From: Roseimaritima ulvae
GTDB lineage: Bacteria; Planctomycetota; Planctomycetia; Pirellulales; Pirellulaceae
Assembly: GCF_008065135.1 (NCBI RefSeq)
Contig: NZ_CP042914.1
Location: forward strand, 1,116,001 to 1,180,000
Reading direction: 5' to 3'
Length of the DNA: 64,000 nt
The notes below the pieces were generated by a model. The model saw nothing but the letters and a program-made list of their open reading frames with translations. It was not told where the DNA came from and did no database searches. Position numbers and translations under genes: made by a program. Each line of letters starts with the position of its first letter. The stretch's first letter is position 1. Positions 3,917 through 15,717 of this stretch are shown here, piece by piece.

Positions 3917-5443
3917 TCAGGCTTGTGCATTGCCTCGGCGCAAACGATTTTGAATGTTCAGCCAGTTGACTACCTGTAGCGGGTCCGATGGTGTGATCAA
4001 TCGATCGTTATCCACGTCCAGATATCTCTCCGGGGCTTGGCTGTCGGTGAGGGGCTGCACGACGGCGAAACTGCTGACGCGGGCTCGGTTCAAGGCGTTG
4101 ATCAAATACAACACATCGATCGGTTCTACCAATCCGTTACCATCCACGTCGGCGACGCGAAACGGGTTCGACCAGGCGTTGTCTGTCGAGACAAATAGTT
4201 TCGCCGTTTGACTCCCCGCCTCCGCATCGCCGCGATGGTATAGCCGCCCGCCGATGAATTGTGGTTCCGCCGTCTGCCACGGTTCGAAAGTATTCAGTTG
4301 GCCCGCGGCACCGCGGTATACGTACAAGCGTTTACTCTGCGGGTGCTGTTCGAGGATCGCGGCGGCGGTGACATCCAAGCTCTGGCCGTCCGAGATATCG
4401 ACGTAGTCGTCCTCTTCGGGTGTGGTTGCCACGAGCGTGATCGGAAGCGAGCTATAAGCGTAACGCGTGCGGCCTGCGGCGTCGGCGATCCGAGCGGAAA
4501 TGTAGTAGCTTCCGGCGGCGATGCCGGAGGTCGGTAGCAGGGTCTGGTTCGGCCGCAGCTCGATGGAACTAGAGACCACTTGCTCTGCTACGGGCAGTGG
4601 ATTGTCGTTGTAGGGATTTTGATCGACGTCCAACGACAAGCTGACGGTCGCGCCGCTATCGGCGTCCGCGTGGTAGTAACTCAACGGGATCGTCTGTTCC
4701 GCGTCAAACGTTTGTCCGCCGCCGATGACCCGCAGGTCCAACAGGTTCGGCCAGTTGGCACCGCTCCAGTCGAGTGCCGCAGATTCCGCTGTGCCACCCA
4801 CCGCTTGCGACAGTCCAGTCAGCGGACGCGCGCCGCCCACGATCCGGCTGTAAACGAACCCCGACGCACCGCGCTGAGGATGCGGTCCGCCATACCAGTC
4901 TTGGGGTACGTCTTCAGAACCATCGTTTGCCGGCGGAAGCAAGGACGGGTCGACCGTGCCGTGGTACCACAGGTGGACGTCGGAGTGTTCGTTGCTGTAG
5001 CCACCGTCGGACAACACGGCTTCGGAAAGCTGCAGGTTGGCTGTGTTGGCGACCGGTTCGCCGGTGAAGTCCAGTGAGCCGTCGCCCTGTGTCCGCCAGT
5101 AATTGTCCCAGAACACGACGTTCTGGTAACGGACCATCGGTGCATCGCCGTAGTCCGCGTTGAACAGGGTGGGTTCGCGGATGCCGTCAACCGGATGCGG
5201 ATCCCACGTGCTGACTTGATCGACCCACACGCCACGCTGTCCCAGCTGATGCGCCAGTTCGCCGACCAACGATGCGCCGCGACTGTGCCCCAGCAAGTGG
5301 ATCGGCAGTTCGGCTACCGGCGTCGGCAAGTCTGCCAGAAAGCCGGGCGTTATCAATTGTTCGGCAACCGCAGCCGCTACGTCGTAGGTGCTGCGAGCGT
5401 AACCGAACACCGATCCGGCCACATCGGACCAATCCAGCAACAT
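3917..5443 (-). CDS. Exported alpha/beta hydrolase with dockerin, C-terminal part (frameshifted gene)
   Basis: The frame holds the main body of a lipase-like alpha/beta hydrolase: LLDWSDVAG, then the nucleophile elbow LLGHSRGAS (catalytic Ser) and STWDPHPVDG. The C-terminus has two calcium-loop segments, DVDGNGLVEPIDVLYLINAL and DVDNDRLITPSDPLQVVNWL, typical of dockerin type I repeats. It lacks its own signal peptide and oxyanion strand. Those are in the overlapping upstream frame at 5377-5730, so this is almost certainly one gene spanning 3917-5730, split by an extra 8-bp repeat unit at 5447-5470. Removing one unit joins the frames through QNPEITMLLDWSD. Whether the ATG at 5443 is used as a restart is unknown. 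The substrate is unknown. Confidence 0.8.
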   Translation of the reverse strand: MLLDWSDVAGSVFGYARSTYDVAAAVAEQLITPGFLADLPTPVAELPIHLLGHSRGASLVGELAHQLGQRGVWVDQVSTWDPHPVDGIREPTLFNADYGDAPMVRYQNVVFWDNYWRTQGDGSLDFTGEPVANTANLQLSEAVLSDGGYSNEHSDVHLWYHGTVDPSLLPPANDGSEDVPQDWYGGPHPQRGASGFVYSRIVGGARPLTGLSQAVGGTAESAALDWSGANWPNLLDLRVIGGGQTFDAEQTIPLSYYHADADSGATVSLSLDVDQNPYNDNPLPVAEQVVSSSIELRPNQTLLPTSGIAAGSYYISARIADAAGRTRYAYSSLPITLVATTPEEDDYVDISDGQSLDVTAAAILEQHPQSKRLYVYRGAAGQLNTFEPWQTAEPQFIGGRLYHRGDAEAGSQTAKLFVSTDNAWSNPFRVADVDGNGLVEPIDVLYLINALNRARVSSFAVVQPLTDSQAPERYLDVDNDRLITPSDPLQVVNWLNIQNRLRRGNAQA

Positions 5444-5730
5444 TGTGATTTCGGGATTTCGGGATTTTGGGTCGCCGCGTCGGTGGGATCCGGTCCGCTG
5501 CGCGAGCCGCCGGCGACCTGTAAGGGCCCGCCGTCATGTCCCGGATCGGTGACGGTCAACCGATACAGAGGCTGATCGAGAGCGAGGTCGGTGCGGGCGC
5601 CGATTTCTTCCGCCATGGCCGCCACCCAACTGTCGATGTTGCTGTTAAAGCCGTGGGTGATCAACGTGATGCCGGCCAGCAAGCAACGCGACTCCAGCGA
5701 TTCGATGACGAGTGAGCGTTTAGCGGGCAT
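5377..5730 (-). CDS. N-terminal part of the same frameshifted dockerin hydrolase
   Basis: The protein starts MPAKRSLVIESLESRCLLAG. An LExR-LLA pattern near the N-terminus is common in secreted planctomycete proteins. ITLITHGFNSNIDSWV follows, which is the first beta strand and HG oxyanion motif of an alpha/beta hydrolase. Real homology should end near residue 95 (PEIPKS), where the 8-bp repeat shifts the frame; the rest of this frame, to 5377, is out-of-frame readthrough. The gene is divergent from the SHD1-like gene with only 11 bp between start codons, so promoters must overlap the coding ends. It could be a pseudogene, a phase-variable gene, or an assembly error. Confidence 0.7.
   Translation of the reverse strand: MPAKRSLVIESLESRCLLAGITLITHGFNSNIDSWVAAMAEEIGARTDLALDQPLYRLTVTDPGHDGGPLQVAGGSRSGPDPTDAATQNPEIPKSQCCWIGPMWPDRCSVTLAAPTT
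5447..5470. repeat. 8-bp tandem repeat causing frameshift
   Basis: Three adjacent units GATTTCGG, GATTTCGG and GATTTTGG lie exactly at the break between the two hydrolase frames. Because 8 is not a multiple of 3, gain or loss of one unit shifts the frame. With one perfect unit removed the two frames fuse into a continuous hydrolase. Confidence 0.9.
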
Positions 5731-11784: not shown

Positions 11785-13839
11785 ATGCCCAACAAACTAG
11801 CGAACGCGCGCAGTCCTTACCTGCTGCAGCACAAGGACAATCCGGTCGACTGGTATCCGTGGGGCAAAGAAGCGCTCGACAAAGCCAAGCAGGAGAACAA
11901 GCCGATCTTTCTGTCGATCGGCTATGCGGCTTGTCACTGGTGCCATGTGATGGAGCACGAGAGTTTCGAAAACGAAGCCATCGCGGCCAAGTTGAACGAA
12001 CATTTTGTGTGCATCAAAGTCGATCGGGAAGAACGTCCCGACATCGACCAAATCTACATGAACGCCGTGCAGATGATGACCGGCCAAGGCGGCTGGCCGC
12101 TGAACGTGTTCCTGACCCCGGATCGCAAGCCGTTCTACGCCGGGACCTATTGGCCGCCGGCGCCGCGGGCTGGGATGCCGGGGTTTCCCACGGTCATCGA
12201 TGCGGTCGCGGACGCTTGGAATGACCGCCAAGCCGACGCCAATAAGTTTGCCGATGAGATCACCGAATCGCTTAATGAGATCGCTTCGGGGCCCGCCTCG
12301 GACGCCACCAACGTGGCAGCGGTGGCCACCATCGATCAAGCCTGCCAACGCTTGATCCGAGTGCATGACGACAAGTGGGGCGGCTTCGGGCAGGCTCCGA
12401 AATTTCCGCATGTGACCGACATCGAGTTACTGCTGCGCTGTCACCATCGTCGCCCCGATGCGGCGGCGATCGCCGCTGTGCGGACGACGCTGGACAAGAT
12501 GGCCTCGGGCGGTATCTACGATCACCTGGGCGGCGGGTTTGCACGTTACAGCGTCGACGAACGTTGGTTGGTGCCGCACTTCGAAAAAATGTTGTACGAC
12601 AACGGCGGGCTGGCCTCCGCGTACCTGCACGCTTATCAACTGACCGGCGACGCCGATTACGCTAACGTTGCCGATGAAACGCTGCGGTACCTGGTCCGCG
12701 ACATGACCGATGCGGCGGGTGGAATCCACAGCAGTGAAGACGCCGACAGCGAAGGCGAAGAAGGTAAGTTCTATGTCTGGAGCGTCGACGAAATCGTGTC
12801 GGTGTTGGGCGAACAACGGGGCCGTCGGTTCGCTCAGATCTATGACGTTACGCCGGCTGGCAATTTTGAAGGCCACAACATTCTGAACCTGCCCATGCCG
12901 ATCGCCAAACTGGCCGAGGAAGCCGGTTGGGATCTGGCCACGGTGATGAAGGAGTTGGCCGAAGACCGCGAGAAGCTGCGGTTGCATCGGGACAAACGCA
13001 TCCACCCCGGCCGCGATGATAAGGTGCTGACCAGCTGGAACGGCTTGGCGATCGAAGCTCTCTCTTTGGGCTCTCGCGTATTGGGCAAACCGGAGTATGC
13101 CGCGGCGGCTGAACAAGCGGCGTCGTTTGTGTGGGACACGATGCGCGGCGAAGACGGACGGTTGCTGCACGCGTTCCGCGACGGGCACGCGCATTTGGCG
13201 GCTTATCTGGACGATTATGCTTACACGATCGAAGCTTTCGTGGCCTTGTACGAAGCCACCGGACGGGCACGGTGGATCGAGCGGGCGACGAAACTGGCCG
13301 ATCAGATGATCGAGCATTTCGAGGATGAGCAATCCGGCGGTTTTTTCTACACCGCCGATGATGCCGAAGCCTTGATTTCGCGAACCAAAGATTGGCATGA
13401 CAACAGCATCCCCAGTTCCAACGGTTCGGCGGCCGCAGGTCTGATTCGTCTCGGCCGACTGACCGACAATCAGACGTTCTTGCAAGCCGCCGAACGCACT
13501 TTGGTAGCCGGCACCGAGGTCATCGAAAAACAAGCCGCGGCGGCCGCCAAGTTATTGTTGGCCTTGGACCTTTGGCACCACGGCAATCGGCAAGTGGTTG
13601 TATCGGCACCGACATCCGAGGCCAACCAAGCTTTGTTGGACGCCTTGTTCCGCAAGTTTTTGCCGCACACCACGATCGCGATCGTAACCGGCGAAGCCCC
13701 AGACAAAGGTCCGTTAGCTAAGCTGCTCGCCGGCAAAAATCCGCAAGGCGGCGAGGCCACGGTCTACGTCTGCAAGAACTACACCTGCGACGCCCCCCAA
13801 AGCGGCCCCGAAGCGCTGCAGACGGTCAAAGCGTTGTAG
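11785..13839 (+). CDS. Thioredoxin-domain protein, YyaL/DUF255 family
   Basis: The ATG at 11785 begins [20 protein letters not shown], the canonical start of the YyaL/SSP411 family; the frame extends upstream inside the previous gene but is not needed. The N-terminal DUF255 thioredoxin-like domain has the [12 protein letters not shown] motif (about residue 51) and [16 protein letters not shown]. The remaining 500 residues form the alpha-barrel region of the family ([37 protein letters not shown]). The length of 684 residues is normal. The biochemical function of the family is not well established. It is probably co-transcribed with the aldehyde dehydrogenase. The stop is followed at once by an inverted repeat. 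Confidence 0.92.
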
Positions 13840-13960
13840 GTCGTTGTTCGCTCCGCGAACACAACGCAGGAACACTGGCAAGAACGTTAAGTTCGCGGAG
13901 CGAACTACGACCATGGAACACTGGCAAGAACGTTAAGTTCGCGGAGCGAACTACGACCAT
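13840..13960. repeat. Tandem 46-bp repeat and inverted GTTCGCTCCGCGAAC unit
   Basis: Two identical 46-bp units lie at 13869-13914 and 13915-13960, each holding GTTCGCGGAGCGAAC. An inverted relative, GTCGTTGTTCGCTCCGCGAA, begins at 13840 directly after the YyaL stop. Left and right arms can pair across the convergent gap. The last ten bases of unit 2 supply the TAG stop of the FAD oxidoreductase (CTA at 13951-13953). Confidence 0.9.
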
Positions 13961-15717
13961 GCCAATTCAAATCCTTGCCCTTTCAGCACGCTCTGGAACT
14001 TGCTCAGCGAATTTGCTTGGTTGCGAATCCCTTGGGGATGCTCGCTTTGATCGATGCAGTGCGCTGCTAACGCACCGGCGGCTTCGCCGATACTCCATTC
14101 GACAGGGTGCAGTCGGTAACAGCCGTTGCTCAGATGGGTGGTGCCAATGTTTTTGCAGCCCGCAATTAAGTTTTGCGTTCGCTGGGGGAGCAATGCGCCT
14201 AAGGGAATTTGAAAGGGCACGCTGGAAAAGTCGATGTAGTTGTCGCCCCCGGAGCTGGGATGAAGATCCAAATGGTAGTAGCCGATGCCGACGGAGTCAT
14301 GGAACGAAGCCGCGGTCGCTTTGTCCGCGGGGTTTTTGAGCAGTGCCTTGCGATCGGCTAAGGAGATGTGCTGCTCCAAAATCGTAAACTCCGCTTTGAT
14401 GCGACGCGATTCGCGGATGTAGGGATACTGGGCCAAGCCATCGGCGGTGCCCATGATGTCTTTCCGCAAACGGAGTCCTTTCCAGCCGGCACCTCCGTCG
14501 GGACGCGGGGCTTCGGTCTGCAGCCAGTACAGCAGCGACAAACTAAGTTGCCGCGCGCCTTCGCGATGTCGGGCGATTTCCTGCTCATCACCCGTGATCA
14601 AATTTCCCAGCATATAGTCGTTCTGCGGCCAGTTAACGATCGTCACTCCACTGTCGTAGGTGTTGGGAACAAAATTGGCCGGATCAATGATGCGGCGGTA
14701 CAGCCACAGGTTCAGCGCTTTGGTTCTCGGCGGCGGGCCGCCCTTGCTCGGCGGCACAAAATCCAAGTCATGAGGTTTCAGCGTATTCGGCTTGGAGTAC
14801 TGCAGCGAAAGCAGTTTGCCGGGCCAGGCGGGATCTAAATCTGGGGTGTGGTTCCGCCAAAAATCGTACTGGGCGGGTTTGTCGATCGTGTGGTCCGCAC
14901 CATCGATATGGTCAATCGCAAAACACCAGGTGAACGCTTGGATGTTATCCGGAGCGGCCTGCGGCGGCGCATGCGCTTCTCCGGTTTCGTCGCGGGATTC
15001 GGCTCCGGTGACAAACTCGGTGTTGGTGAGCGGTAGCAGATCGCCCTGTTCACTGGCGTCGATAAAATACGGCGCCGTGACTTGAATCGACTGTCCTGCC
15101 GCGGTCGCCAGCGTTACCGAACGAACTTGGTCTCCATCAACCTCCGCTTTCAAAGGCTCGGTATTGAGCAATACCGTCAATCGACCGGCGCTGACCGCGG
15201 GCGCCAACATGGCATCCAGTACGGCGACGGCGACACGGGGTTCATGACAAAGTCGCGACACCGAGCCGTTGCCAGGATTGAGTCGAGGATTCGACTTGGC
15301 GGCGGCGGTGAGCGGGTAATTGCGGCGATAGAAGTTGCGAACCCTTTCGCGGAATTCACGGTAGCTGGCCGTGCACCCATGCGTCTCGATATGAGCGTGT
15401 TCGTCGGGCGGCACACCCTGTTGGCTCAGTTGCCCACCCAGCCAGTCGGTGGGTTCCGTCAACAGCACGCGTTTTCCCATTCGCGTTGCGGCCAGCGCCG
15501 CGGCACAGCCTCCCAGGCCTCCCCCGATGATCACCACGTCGACAGCGATTTCGTCTGCAGGGCGATCGGCAGTCGCGGCGACGAGCTGTGGGTAACACGC
15601 GGAGGCAGCACCAAGGCCGCAGAATTCGAGAAAACGGCGGCGTGCAAAGCCGCGAGCATAGGTCGGTCGAGAGTCGGTGTGGGAAGGATCTGGCATCGTG
15701 TTTCGTGATGGACGCAA
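13951..15717 (-). CDS. Exported FAD-dependent oxidoreductase (Tat substrate)
   Basis: This 588-residue protein has a twin-arginine signal (ARRRFLEFCGLGAASA) followed by an FAD-binding Rossmann motif, VDVVIIGGGLGGCAAALAA, and TEPTDWLGGQLSQQGV. It belongs to the FAD-dependent oxidoreductase group often found exported in planctomycetes, usually of unknown substrate. Other group features are FIDASEQGDLLPL and the late VGIGYYHLDLHPS. Tat export means it is folded with FAD before leaving the cytoplasm. The start may be the second Met (MPDPSHTDS), eight residues in. The C-terminus FELAWS and the stop fall inside the neighbouring 46-bp repeat, so the original end may have been altered by the repeat. 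Confidence 0.85.
   Translation of the reverse strand: MRPSRNTMPDPSHTDSRPTYARGFARRRFLEFCGLGAASACYPQLVAATADRPADEIAVDVVIIGGGLGGCAAALAATRMGKRVLLTEPTDWLGGQLSQQGVPPDEHAHIETHGCTASYREFRERVRNFYRRNYPLTAAAKSNPRLNPGNGSVSRLCHEPRVAVAVLDAMLAPAVSAGRLTVLLNTEPLKAEVDGDQVRSVTLATAAGQSIQVTAPYFIDASEQGDLLPLTNTEFVTGAESRDETGEAHAPPQAAPDNIQAFTWCFAIDHIDGADHTIDKPAQYDFWRNHTPDLDPAWPGKLLSLQYSKPNTLKPHDLDFVPPSKGGPPPRTKALNLWLYRRIIDPANFVPNTYDSGVTIVNWPQNDYMLGNLITGDEQEIARHREGARQLSLSLLYWLQTEAPRPDGGAGWKGLRLRKDIMGTADGLAQYPYIRESRRIKAEFTILEQHISLADRKALLKNPADKATAASFHDSVGIGYYHLDLHPSSGGDNYIDFSSVPFQIPLGALLPQRTQNLIAGCKNIGTTHLSNGCYRLHPVEWSIGEAAGALAAHCIDQSEHPQGIRNQANSLSKFQSVLKGQGFELAWS

Follow-up and report, generated by a model that had tools for sequence, protein, structure and literature searches.

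Contingency genes carry a hypermutable repeat tract, usually made up of many perfect units. In the phase-variable simple-sequence-repeat genes of pathogens, a tandem repeat lies in the early coding region of a gene for a secreted protein, and both features recur at a locus in the planctomycete Roseimaritima ulvae, a seaweed bacterium. The R. ulvae locus differs from such genes in having far fewer units, which are not conserved in relatives and do not recur in the genome, and in showing no known length variation (one genome per species).

Other described systems involve the loss of a gene through a change in a short repeat. For the CTGG repeats of lacI, the same type of event as that considered here is documented (PMC3485313). 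In this hotspot a short, non-triplet unit within coding DNA is gained or lost by polymerase slippage, which inactivates the gene in a way that is reversible in principle; the case in R. ulvae differs in its unit of 8 bp rather than 4, in ancestral units that were imperfect (7/8), and in being one event in one genome. The locus also resembles the frameshifted singleton pseudogenes of the GeneTack survey (PMC3711429), in which two open frames make up one conserved protein whose homologues are continuous elsewhere. It is different from these in that the causal lesion can be pinned exactly to one tandem unit.

The interrupted gene and its product

The window analyzed is a stretch of 64,000 nucleotides, bases 1116001-1180000 of the R. 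ulvae genome. An interrupted gene on its minus strand (3917..5730) is the orthologue of an intact, 613-residue protein of R. sediminicola JC651, with 68% identity in the C-terminal part and 62% in the N-terminal part. An earlier note on this DNA had placed an N-terminal signal and HG motif in one frame and the GHSRG motif and dockerin in another, and this is confirmed by minus-strand open reading frames at 5730..5377 and 5443..3917. The N-terminal fragment (5377..5730, 117 aa) contains MPAKRSLVIESLESRCLLAG together with the ITHGF oxyanion-type loop, and carries the planctomycete extracellular motif and the first alpha/beta hydrolase strands; its final ~20 codons, past the repeat, are out of frame. 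The C-terminal fragment (3917..5443, 508 aa) begins at an ATG at the junction (5443), lacks an export signal, and holds the rest of the hydrolase domain (GHSRG, DPHPVDG, HSDVHLWYHG), a beta-sandwich and a type I dockerin. As called, the start of the gene (5730) is divergent from, and 12 bases apart from, the next open reading frame on the plus strand (5742), whose true start is probably further in; a promoter scan at the locus gave nothing useful.

The frame switch falls on an 8-bp repeat at 5447..5470, precisely where it had been located. On the minus strand this tract consists of three units, CCAAAATC-CCGAAATC-CCGAAATC, seen on the plus strand as GATTTCGG (5447-5454), GATTTCGG (5455-5462) and GATTTTGG (5463-5470). 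Tandem Repeats Finder (TRF) gives a period of 8, 3.1 copies and 94% matches, and the tract contains 2.6 perfect units. Across the junction the minus strand reads GACCCAAAATCCCGAAATCCCGAAATCACAATGTTGCTGG; the frame from the ATG at 5730 continues as ..TQNPEIPKSQCCWIG.. to a stop at 5377, and the frame with LLDWSDVAGS..GHSRG..dockerin ends at 3917. When one 8-bp unit is removed the sequence becomes ..TQNPEITMLLDWSD.., a single open frame of 601 codons. The orthologues directly bear out this joined reading, which the earlier note had proposed from the dropping of one unit, and they identify the extra CCGAAATC as a tandem duplication that shifts the frame.

Modeling and profile comparisons suggest that the locus encoded an exported, dockerin-bearing, lipase-like alpha/beta hydrolase. 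The dockerin is assigned to type I by its domain score, with Dockerin_1 (PF00404) in the C-terminal part at 30.6 bits against a Pfam cut-off of 22.9 (E 3.9e-7). The planctomycete extracellular motif scores 17.9 bits in R. ulvae, below the cut-off of 25.5, and 25.6, just above it, in the orthologue. Within the family alignment, matches to the Thioesterase, Abhydrolase_6 and Lipase models are weak to moderate; by profile, pancreatic lipases are the closest solved structures (best E 0.0013), and a search of NCBIfam found no match. The intact R. sediminicola protein was modeled with an overall mean pLDDT of 63.6 (for residues 21-280, mostly 70-94), and the model aligns with lipases and lipase-like hydrolases at Z 13.2-13.8 and an rmsd of 3.4-4.4 A over ~190-210 residues. 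In this model the fold is that of a lipase-like alpha/beta hydrolase with a nucleophile elbow, the GHSRG of which is conserved. The likeness to pancreatic-lipase-type and thioesterase-type hydrolases (PF00151, PF00975; PDB 1gpl, 3ds8) extends to the G-H-S-R-G elbow, the HG loop and the order of the sheet, with Z ~13 over ~195 residues for the intact orthologue; the differences are an identity of ~9-20%, scores of the R. ulvae protein itself below the Pfam hydrolase cut-offs, and the presence of a dockerin. Residues H28-G29, S149 (of GHSRG), D176 and H248 (R. sediminicola numbering) are conserved and are candidates for the oxyanion loop and catalytic triad. For the catalytic domain, the top rows of a Foldseek search (GH158 and others) were set aside, as their TM-scores against this model are 0.11-0.22 and they match mostly the beta-sandwich part.

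In R. sediminicola numbering the break falls at I94/T95, past the HG loop (28-29) but before S149. It interrupts a predicted strand, 93-99, that belongs to the core of the alpha/beta hydrolase sheet. The export motif, HG loop and first strands are thus parted from the catalytic serine, and on the orthologue model the disruption takes away parts that the fold or export would need. The product would now be a 117-aa fragment without the catalytic serine, and anything made from the downstream ATG would begin too late to include either the export signal or the first strands. Enzyme activity has presumably been lost.

Relatives and the origin of the duplication

The R. sediminicola JC651 orthologue (NZ_WIAD01000002.1) is intact in one frame and has one unit fewer, reading TPNPEITLLLDWSD with the junction CCAAACCCGGAGATCACG. 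The joined R. ulvae protein aligns with it without a gap across the junction once one unit is omitted, and the two unedited fragments also abut there in the alignment. Continuous homologues were likewise found in other genera (G035, 57% identity; G027, 42%). A scan of relatives, with one genome per species, gave 36 loci. The ~35 distinct relatives that cover the region, mostly Planctomycetota and Verrucomicrobiota with a few labeled Myxococcales or Deltaproteobacteria, are all continuous from the HG loop to GHSRG, and none has the extra unit. The frame change is therefore private to the R. ulvae genome among the genomes seen, and these orthologues do not share the shift as separate proteins. 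The 20 kb examined around the R. sediminicola copy contains none of the neighboring genes tested, so orthology is judged from sequence alone.

These comparisons also bear on whether the frame change might be used by the cell, through programmed -1 ribosomal frameshifting or re-initiation at the ATG (5443) that yields a full-length or second protein on purpose. An ATG does stand in the downstream frame directly at the junction, and a -1 shift within the repeat would bring translation back into frame at the cost of three additional residues, but no relative needs a frame change and none is conserved, and the ATG is replaced by CTG in both R. sediminicola and G035. With no classical slippery heptamer evident at the site by eye, and with a downstream product that would have neither export signal nor core strands, deliberate recoding is extremely improbable.

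The gene appears to be one that the organism can do without. It matches in 12 of the 396 genomes of the order, is absent from R. multifibrata (G002), and is present as a single copy in R. ulvae. In another genus of Pirellulaceae the same hydrolase has decayed independently (L013; G019:C311:15476-15613 plus flanks): the frame changes between the first strands and GHSRG, and most of the domain that precedes the dockerin is gone. Together these observations form the pattern of a dispensable accessory gene, which is how we classify the hydrolase.

We consider it quite likely that a recent slipped-strand duplication of 8 bp inactivated this dispensable gene. Relative to other genomes, the duplication changes the frame of a gene that has no other lesion; the mechanism and its recency are suggested by the geometry of the repeat and the condition of the remaining sequence. 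The ancestor would have read ..CCCAAAATCCCGAAATCACAATG.., with two imperfect 8-bp units and a 5-bp direct repeat, AAATC, at an offset of 8. During replication, the new strand may have slipped back by one unit and copied CCGAAATC twice, so adding 8 bp and throwing the frame. Identity at offset 8 is 5 nt (AAATC) with one unit fewer and is now 13 nt, which is the geometry of a slippage duplication, and a single slip of one unit explains the change. R. sediminicola is without the repeat, so ordinary base changes in the R. ulvae lineage probably created the slippery site in the first place.

Several observations point to a young lesion. In neutral simulations that counted nonsense changes alone, about 94% of genes carried a stop once 0.05 substitutions per site had accrued; no second stop or frame change is found in the joined 601 codons, which places the lesion below ~0.05 neutral substitutions per site (95%). 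The synonymous distance to R. sediminicola is ~1.1 (NG86 dS, near saturation), with dN/dS of ~0.19 for the whole gene. There are 6 replacements specific to R. ulvae and 14 specific to R. sediminicola, so the R. ulvae branch is not accelerated. The lack of a second lesion and of any excess of replacements indicates that the lesion is young; the break therefore long postdates the split between R. ulvae and R. sediminicola, and may be as young as the culture.

A gene that otherwise looks functional, with no further lesion and no relaxed evolution, would also be expected if natural populations are intact and the extra unit is an assembly or sequencing error or a mutation of the cultured clone. Furthermore, validated singleton frameshifts are often sequencing errors (PMC3711429). 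However, the genome of R. ulvae UC8T is complete in a single contig of 8,212,515 bp (PMC13190842; accession CP042914, PMC7716947), and what was added is exactly one 8-bp unit, in tandem and at a site prone to slippage, which is unlike a miscounted homopolymer. Nor did the quarter of the genome that was surveyed show a burst of similar lesions. We regard an artefact as unlikely. An independent draft of UC8T (LWSJ00000000) and further R. ulvae strains, UF2, UF3 and UF4.2, have been described (PMC4982196).

Tandem repeats in the genome and the question of switching

Tandem repeats were surveyed in a sample of 1.98 Mb of the 8.21 Mb R. ulvae genome. The sample contained 870 repeats with units that are not a multiple of 3, and for each it was asked whether one unit fewer would join two coding frames, judged by a codon-usage test with a random control. 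An initial, looser survey of frames joined by repeats had returned hundreds of chance matches, mostly with 4- and 5-bp units, and was replaced. Frame-joining repeats numbered 2 of the 870, compared with 5 of 6000 random positions (~0.7 expected). Since they are confined to the hydrolase locus and one artefact, the joined reading at the hydrolase locus is not due to chance. The other match, AAACGAAACGAAA at 1044256, is not a broken gene; one gene ends there, with a TAA just past the repeat, and a second, overlapping frame continues.

Many heptamer arrays are present in the sample, almost all of them intergenic, and 8-mer arrays of at least three perfect copies are all intergenic. The intergenic heptanucleotide arrays belong to a (GAGATTT)n / (CAAATCT)n family with up to 20 copies, often arranged as two back-to-back blocks of related heptamers; examples outside the window, in genome coordinates, are 395390-395485, 619882-619979 and 1973373-1973577. 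The 28-mer (GAGATTT)4 has 506 matches in R. ulvae, 21 in R. sediminicola, and 0 in 38 other Pirellulales including R. multifibrata. Within the window, two perfect head-to-tail copies of a 46-bp unit lie at 13869-13961, just downstream of an open reading frame that ends at 13839.

It had been suggested that slippage at the hydrolase repeat could turn the exported enzyme on and off. Under such phase variation, two and three units would reversibly switch a secreted hydrolase under selection, and the setting has some of the expected features: the repeat is early in a gene for a surface or secreted protein, its unit is not a multiple of 3, and the present array, with its 13 nt of offset-8 identity, should shed a unit more readily than it acquires one. 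Heptamer arrays abound in the genome, which shows that units of 7-9 bp do expand there. A continuous open reading and a low dN/dS would likewise be expected of a gene that is usually on in natural populations and happens to be off in the clone sequenced. However, 2.6 perfect units fall short of a hypermutable contingency tract, and the repeat is missing at this site in R. sediminicola and the other relatives read at the DNA level. It is neither kept in orthologues nor recurrent within genes: nearly all of the genome's longer arrays are intergenic, and in the 1.98 Mb non-triplet repeats interrupt genes no more often than random positions do. The frame change is also a singleton, whereas calls of phase variation in the GeneTack survey require at least 5 frame-transition genes in a cluster (PMC3711429). 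Selected switching at this locus is accordingly improbable.

We give slightly less credence still to a version in which a young contingency tract, in a lineage that expands 7-9 bp units, toggles the secreted dockerin hydrolase at a selectable rate. If this were true, cell populations on seaweed would be mixed for the enzyme. Switching here, if shown, would give planctomycetes a case of phase variation driven by a tandem repeat, a subject to which no paper in a literature search was dedicated; the evidence points elsewhere.

Of the three readings offered by the earlier note, recent inactivation is well supported by the intact orthologues with one unit fewer and by a gene with no further lesion and no relaxed evolution; switching finds no such support, and a duplication of 8 bp in a complete genome is unlikely to be a sequencing error. 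Reversion by slippage is possible in principle. Most likely, the locus records an ordinary, recent gene-disabling mutation, with no good sign of an on/off switch. In annotation, the two open reading frames are best recorded as one frameshifted gene rather than as a pair of proteins, and a check is needed before R. ulvae UC8T is credited with the secreted hydrolase.
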